Of a stretch of 64,000 bases of DNA, positions 28,538 through 63,737 are shown piece by piece. Each line of letters starts with the position of its first letter. Position 1 is the first letter of the stretch. Under the pieces are notes generated by a model, which was not told the DNA's origin, did not search any database, and saw only the letters and a program-made list of their open reading frames with translations. A program made the translations under genes and the position numbers. Source of the stretch: Ignatzschineria sp. RMDPL8A (lineage in GTDB: Bacteria; Pseudomonadota; Gammaproteobacteria; Cardiobacteriales; Wohlfahrtiimonadaceae); contig NZ_JAPPWA010000001.1 in the NCBI RefSeq assembly GCF_029815055.1, positions 137,635 through 201,634 on the forward strand. The letters run 5' to 3'.

Positions 28538-28565
28538 AAAACCTTGCCACAGGCAAGGTTTTTTT
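28538..28565 (+). terminator. Intrinsic terminator after fabI
   Basis: AACCTTGCC and GGCAAGGTT pair over a three-base loop (28549-28551), followed by five more T residues. A clean stem and tail 45 bases after the fabI stop. Confidence 0.9.
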
Positions 28566-28660: not shown

Positions 28661-28688
28661 TTGACTCTCAGAAATAGTCTGCTAATAT
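28661..28688 (+). promoter_or_regulatory. Promoter of the candidate small RNA
   Basis: TTGACT (28661-28666), a 16-base spacer ending in TGC (extended -10 element) and TAATAT (28683-28688). The expected start, seven bases downstream at about 28695, is the first base of the hairpin that opens the candidate RNA. Confidence 0.6.
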
Positions 28689-28694
28689 ATGGTC

Positions 28695-28779
28695 AACGTT
28701 TGATGATTCAAACGTTCTCCTCCATATCCTCCTTTGGTGGTTATTTTGCCGAGATACCTTAGTATCTCGGTCTTTTTTT
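28695..28779 (+). ncRNA. Candidate trans-acting small RNA with anti-Shine-Dalgarno loops
   Basis: An 85-base unit between fabI and priA with its own promoter. It begins with a perfect 8-pair hairpin (AACGTTTG ... CAAACGTT, 28695-28716). Next is a mostly unpaired CU-rich stretch with CTCCTCC (28717-28723) and CCTCC (28728-28732), both complementary to ribosome-binding sites. It ends with a 9-pair terminator stem (CCGAGATAC ... GTATCTCGG) and TC plus seven T. No plausible reading frame runs through it. This is the layout of Hfq-type small RNAs that block translation starts. No known family is recognised. Confidence 0.6.
28749..28779 (+). terminator. Intrinsic terminator of the candidate small RNA
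   Basis: Nine-pair stem (28749-28757 with 28762-28770), four-base loop and an eight-base T-rich tail ending in seven consecutive T. Too far from fabI, and after an earlier terminator, so it most likely ends an independent transcript. Confidence 0.8.
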
Positions 28780-63609: not shown

Positions 63610-63630
63610 CATGACAATTCGTGCGGATAT

Positions 63631-63721
63631 ACTTCCCTACGCTGGTATGAGCCAGATCAGGTCCTGAGGGTCTAAAAGCTCGATTGCTTTAATCTCAGCC
63701 CACATGAGTGGACGCCCCTAG
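63631..63721 (-). promoter_or_regulatory. TPP riboswitch (THI element)
   Basis: The minus strand carries the THI-box elements in order: GGGGCGTCC, GGGCTGAGAT, a variable P3 stem with TAAAGC/GCTTTTA, GACCTGATCTGG, then ACCAGCGTAGGGAAG. All invariant blocks that contact TPP are present. It is followed by a terminator and thiC. Confidence 0.95.
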
Positions 63722-63737
63722 TGAAATCTATGCTACG

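Follow-up and report, generated by a model that had tools for sequence, protein, structure and literature searches.

A conserved small RNA gene with two anti-Shine-Dalgarno motifs between fabI and priA of Ignatzschineria is related to the RF02278 and S17 RNAs

The gap between fabI and priA of Ignatzschineria sp. RMDPL8A raises the question whether it holds a gene of its own and, if so, to which kind of RNA this gene belongs. We address it here in a window of 64,000 nucleotides, the whole stretch of DNA that was analysed. A first-pass annotation had read the gap as a candidate small RNA (sRNA) gene with two anti-Shine-Dalgarno (anti-SD) motifs that could repress many messages, and had recognised no family. 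We show here that the plus strand at 28661-28779 carries an sRNA gene in which a promoter is followed by a hairpin of nine pairs, a CU-rich core with both anti-SD motifs and a terminator (Table 1). The identities of both neighbours, the enoyl-ACP reductase gene fabI and priA, were confirmed by Pfam; the gene lies downstream of the fabI terminator, as had been described, and likewise no reading frame of at least 80 codons crosses the RNA. Rfam matches to Phe_leader, STnc370, OrzO-P and RNAI fall on the fabI terminator, far below cut-off, and were rejected as chance. Elsewhere in the window, a TPP riboswitch (63617-63729, minus strand) scores 70.4 bits, above its cut-off.

The anatomy of the gene can be read directly. 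The promoter consists of the elements first assigned to it, and transcription is predicted to start at about 28695. The 5' hairpin (SL1) and the terminator with its seven T had been recognised correctly, but eight pairs had been counted in SL1 where there are nine, and nine in the terminator where there are ten, one of them G-U. The CU-rich stretch had been taken to be exposed. Its CTCCTCC (28717-28723) and the second motif, TCCTCC (28727-28732), are both present; full exposure is not, as the small hairpin SL2 in the predicted fold takes part of the first motif into its stem and displays the second in its loop. The sequence CCTCCTT is also found in the 3' tail of 16S rRNA. The fold reaches -28.5 kcal/mol (z = -6.98), and none of 200 shuffles was as good.

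Table 1. Features of the sRNA gene and of the preceding fabI terminator, in window coordinates.
Feature	Position	Strand	Basis
fabI intrinsic terminator, AACCTTGCC-ACA-GGCAAGGTT then T run; sets the sRNA gene apart from fabI	28540..28565	+	sequence
-35 element TTGACT	28661..28666	+	sequence, promoter scan, order-wide alignment
Extended -10 element TGC-TAATAT, 16-nt spacer	28680..28688	+	sequence, promoter scan, order-wide alignment
SL1, 5' hairpin, 9 pairs (28695-28703 with 28708-28716), loop TGAT	28695..28716	+	fold, covariation
Anti-SD site 1, CTCCTCCA, partly within the SL2 stem	28717..28724	+	near-invariant in 57 aligned loci
SL2, small hairpin, CC.CCA (28719-28724) with UGG.GG (28735-28740), U-U mismatch	28719..28740	+	predicted fold
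Anti-SD site 2, TCCTCCTTT, mostly in the SL2 loop	28727..28735	+	near-invariant in 57 aligned loci
U-rich stretch UUAUUUU between SL2 and the terminator; candidate site of Hfq contact (putative role)	28741..28747	+	invariant in the family
Intrinsic terminator, stem 28748-28771 (10 pairs including one G-U), T7 28773-28779	28748..28779	+	terminator scan, fold, covariation

Conservation is the decisive support for an sRNA gene. In blastn searches the sRNA was found in 15 of the 16 other genomes of the family (E 2e-16 to 3e-25) and in all 12 sampled genomes of the order's second family. R1, a covariance model based on sequences of the window's family plus one of the neighbouring family, matches 30 of the order's 32 genomes; the two without a match are draft assemblies in about 330 and 230 contigs, and another genome of the order (G017) has a diverged copy. 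Each of the order's 28 aligned loci keeps a TTGAC-type -35 element and a -10 box, at a near-constant distance to the core. In the family alignment, SL1 is paired in 100% of cells and both sides have changed in five of the eight counted pairs, while CTCCTCCATATCCTCCTTTGGTGGTTATTTTGCCG is unchanged and the U-rich stretch does not vary at all. Compensatory change in SL1, a fixed core and a kept promoter are what one expects of an RNA gene in which selection acts on the sequence of the CU-rich core. The alignment of 57 loci from the wider group described below (A6) adds double compensatory changes in all six modelled pairs of the terminator, although pair counts from these loci lean towards the model because the alignment was fitted to it. 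SL2 is paired in 98.9% of cells there and shows little variation, and its pairing is not proven by covariation because it hardly varies. The reading as an independent sRNA gene holds, and the anti-SD motifs are its most conserved part; the expectation that CCUCC loops are conserved and stems covary is borne out for the core, SL1 and the terminator.

The genomic place is shared by close relatives. The fabI locus is common to the window and named Ignatzschineria records, and FabI of one metagenome record is identical to that of the window. Relatives had been expected to keep the sRNA in this gap, and eight Ignatzschineria loci do have it directly downstream of fabI, with priA seen on the far side in two of them within the fetched 3 kb. 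Unlike its congeners, one Ignatzschineria genome (G016) has a rearranged locus: the sRNA (G016:C2:26826-26889, L010) lies about 4 kb from the fabI of the same contig (L044) and on the opposite strand. A motif resembling GCANTGCARCA was observed between the -35 and -10 elements or close by in the order's second family (L025-L036), and also in some other lineages (L120, L131, L136, L156, L161, L185); it may be a site at which a regulator acts on the sRNA promoter.

The statement that no family is recognisable has to be given up. The sRNA is clearly related to the Rfam family RF02278 (Betaproteobacteria toxic small RNA) and to S17 of Bordetella pertussis. RF02278 matches the site with 28.4 bits (E 3e-4 in a short search) and relatives with 27.9-35.5 bits, all of which miss its gathering cut-off of 50 bits; the gathering score of any Rfam sRNA family was reached by none of 20 sampled loci. 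Across 369 genomes of the class (in the GTDB sense, betas included), RF02278 matched 139 at E <=0.01, with only two above the cut-off. R1 matched 118 of the 369, largely in the same places, and recovered the above-cut-off RF02278 loci L119 (35.4 bits, E 4e-7) and L120 (28.1 bits). Similar RNAs are found in about a third of the sampled class genomes; the labels beta and gamma that we use for these loci are our reading of model scores and gene order. The window's sRNA has the RF02278-type core, two CU-rich sites against the ribosome-binding site (RBS) and a GGUGG arm, and over the 57 aligned loci CTCCTCCA-(variable)-TCCTCCTTTGGTGG is near-fixed.

The window's genome holds one copy, the next two matches being plain terminators, and plasmids gave only one weak match; the exact core was absent from viral contigs. 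Tandem copies about 130-220 nt apart occur at L132 and in the genomes G175, G206, G291 and G312, comparable to the NmsR siblings of Neisseria. In a sample of the phylum, R1 at E 0.001 matched 19 of 398 genomes, including four of one family outside the class (G495, G515, G765, G767; 32-34 bits), and these matches suggest that a related RNA may be present in another class.

Several anti-SD sRNAs are known with which the window's RNA can be compared. S17/S17S of B. pertussis likewise has two conserved anti-RBS sites, located where the mature RNA begins, as well as a small hairpin and a terminator (PMC11722255), and its neighbour coq7 recurs in several of the gamma and beta loci found here. However, S17S, 67 nt long, is cut by RNase E from a precursor of 190 nt, whereas in the window the promoter stands directly before an 85-nt RNA, and the 5' hairpin and the fabI/priA context set the latter apart from S17/S17S. 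The Burkholderia members of RF02278 (ncS03, ncS05, ncS27/bdhR1, ncS62; PMC5688073) share the core UCUCCUCCA...UCCUCCU..GGUGG, the two CU-rich sites and the terminator, but are double-hairpin RNAs, mostly of 57-67 nt (ncS27 92 nt), without SL1, and are present in three to five copies per genome. NmsRA/NmsRB of Neisseria (RF02877, PMC5362039) show the same order of 5' hairpin, two anti-SD motifs (UUUCUCCUCUAU..CUCCUUU) and terminator. They differ in being a tandem sibling pair with a core that lacks GGUGG; the window's sRNA scores 25.4 bits against the RF02877 gathering cut-off of 52, and the NmsR model matches only 2 of the 369 class genomes. Burkholderia ncS16 (RF02866) shares a CUCCU-type motif and a terminator at the same place, but its core differs and the score is 23.5 bits against a cut-off of 48. 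The window's sRNA is a variant of the S17/RF02278 kind, probably orthologous to it, with a 5' hairpin as in NmsR; we file it as a variant because it stays below the Rfam cut-off and the gene order near coq7/rplM is not kept.

These two reservations are also what would speak for convergence, in which an unrelated RNA of the order acquired its CCUCC motifs independently of S17/RF02278, and CU-rich motifs do recur among unrelated sRNAs. We nevertheless consider this improbable. The similarity to RF02278-type loci goes beyond CCUCC alone and comprises a core of 20-22 nt including UUUGGUGG, its spacing and the position of the terminator; plain blastn finds intermediates (G049 with E 0.005 and in rplM-rpsI context, G045 with E 0.006), and reciprocal model matches reach E 1e-5 to 1e-10.

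Gene order across the class ties the RF02278 loci to the gammaproteobacterial ones. Among 50 distinct loci outside the order, rplM and rpsI follow on the same strand in 34, with the rplM start 157-471 nt away, and upstream of the core we find Coq7 (15/50), OsmC (11/50) and a small [2Fe-2S] ferredoxin-related gene (24/50). At least one of four recurrent neighbours is present in 43 of the 50; neighbour families were checked by Pfam, the ferredoxin match falling slightly below the Pfam cut-off. A tRNA gene was often observed about 1 kb downstream of the core. The orders overlap like links of a chain: coq7-osmC-sRNA in the beta loci L119, L120 and L185, osmC-sRNA-rplM-rpsI in L183 and L186, and coq7-sRNA-rplM-rpsI in L123, L126 and others. 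Our literature search on rplM or coq7 together with an sRNA gave the S17 paper as the only relevant one, and there S17 adjoins coq7 in B. pertussis (PMC11722255). The neighbourhood of coq7, osmC and rplM-rpsI, common elsewhere, is absent from the window's own order, where fabI is the context in the window and the eight Ignatzschineria loci and other genes elsewhere. Because the rplM/coq7 synteny is absent in the order, orthology is here based on sequence and on the intermediates.

A place upstream of rplM on the same strand, as in most other gammaproteobacterial loci, is also where a cis-acting leader or attenuator of rplM-rpsI would be sought, and ribosomal-protein operons often carry leaders. 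For the window we rejected such a role, in place of a trans-acting RNA, as very unlikely: the sRNA gene is followed there by priA, which lies on the opposite strand, the loss of the coq7/rplM context in the order argues against it, rplM is not nearby in the beta loci L119, L120 and L185 either, and S17 acts in trans (PMC11722255).

Little can be said for a small protein gene. Starting from an ATG at 28703, a frame of 19 codons, MIQTFSSISSFGGYFAEIP (28703-28762, plus strand), spans the whole core, and S17L too contains a frame, of 32 codons (PMC11722255). However, relatives lack the ATG, a core length difference of 2 nt between families breaks the frame, variation is as low at third codon positions as at the other two and the ATG is not preceded by an RBS; with start codon and frame unconserved, we rejected this reading as highly improbable. 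That promoter-like and terminator-like sequences stand here by chance and without function is equally hard to believe: consensus scans by themselves do no better than chance (promoters: 4 found, 3.7 expected; terminators: 3 found, 2.2 expected), but sequence conservation, covariation and promoter conservation contradict it.

We therefore return to the S17/RF02278 relationship and to what it implies for function. S17 has been shown by experiment to be an Hfq-dependent repressor, 70 of about 91 candidate targets match its sites near their RBS, and S17S is without strong toxicity in E. coli (PMC11722255), so that inhibition of growth on over-expression is no strict mark of the group. For the double-hairpin RNAs of Burkholderia, coverage of RBSs has been predicted, and growth slows when ncS27 is over-expressed (PMC5688073), while the anti-SD motifs of NmsR mediate repression of TCA-cycle mRNAs (PMC5362039). 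By analogy with these homologs, the window's sRNA would be expressed, use Hfq, pair with mRNAs and repress them; hfq is present in its genome. Most likely it is a trans-acting, probably Hfq-assisted sRNA that blocks RBSs, an S17/RF02278 ortholog relocated beside fabI and equipped with an extra 5' hairpin. The housekeeping-type promoter would give rise to an RNA of about 85 nt (28695-28779) with SL1 capping its 5' end. We infer that the U-rich stretch and the terminator form the kind of module that Hfq favours, so that together with the terminator tail it is a likely Hfq-binding 3' module. The core would offer CCUCC twice, with most of the second site in the loop of a weak hairpin, and these sites may pair with the GGAGG Shine-Dalgarno sequence of selected mRNAs and thereby block ribosome binding. 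The presumed ancestral place (coq7/osmC - sRNA - rplM-rpsI) would have been lost in the order, with the gene now standing after fabI in this lineage. Target prediction over 464 kb of the genome (367 genes) yielded 35 strong duplexes against a mean of 37 for controls with CCUCC preserved and flanks shuffled; because this test was negative, the anti-SD reading is built on homology and conservation, and we name no target.

Up to now, the anti-SD sRNAs known from Bordetella, Burkholderia and Neisseria have each been treated on their own, and the core family carries a betaproteobacterial label in Rfam. Our data point to a single group with these RNAs as its branches, present in about a third of the sampled class genomes, in which about 22 nt of core are nearly fixed and the position ahead of rplM-rpsI recurs. 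What is new is the breadth of this group in Gammaproteobacteria, known before mainly from Betaproteobacteria, and its linkage to ribosomal-protein genes. A search for the core sequence in the text of mainly openly accessible papers found no relevant one, so that the gammaproteobacterial branch is likely, though not certain, to be new. One may speculate, with considerably more doubt than confidence, that the common ancestor of Beta- and Gammaproteobacteria had a single anti-SD sRNA gene beside the L13-S9 operon, whose RNA mimicked the 16S rRNA tail and served as a general tuner linking ribosome supply to translation of mRNAs with strong Shine-Dalgarno sequences, and that it became free-standing in the window's order. 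If the grouping is true, few base-pairing sRNAs of Proteobacteria would be conserved as widely as these, which lack an annotation in most of the genomes that carry them, and the linkage to a ribosomal-protein operon offers a testable idea on the original role of the sRNA.
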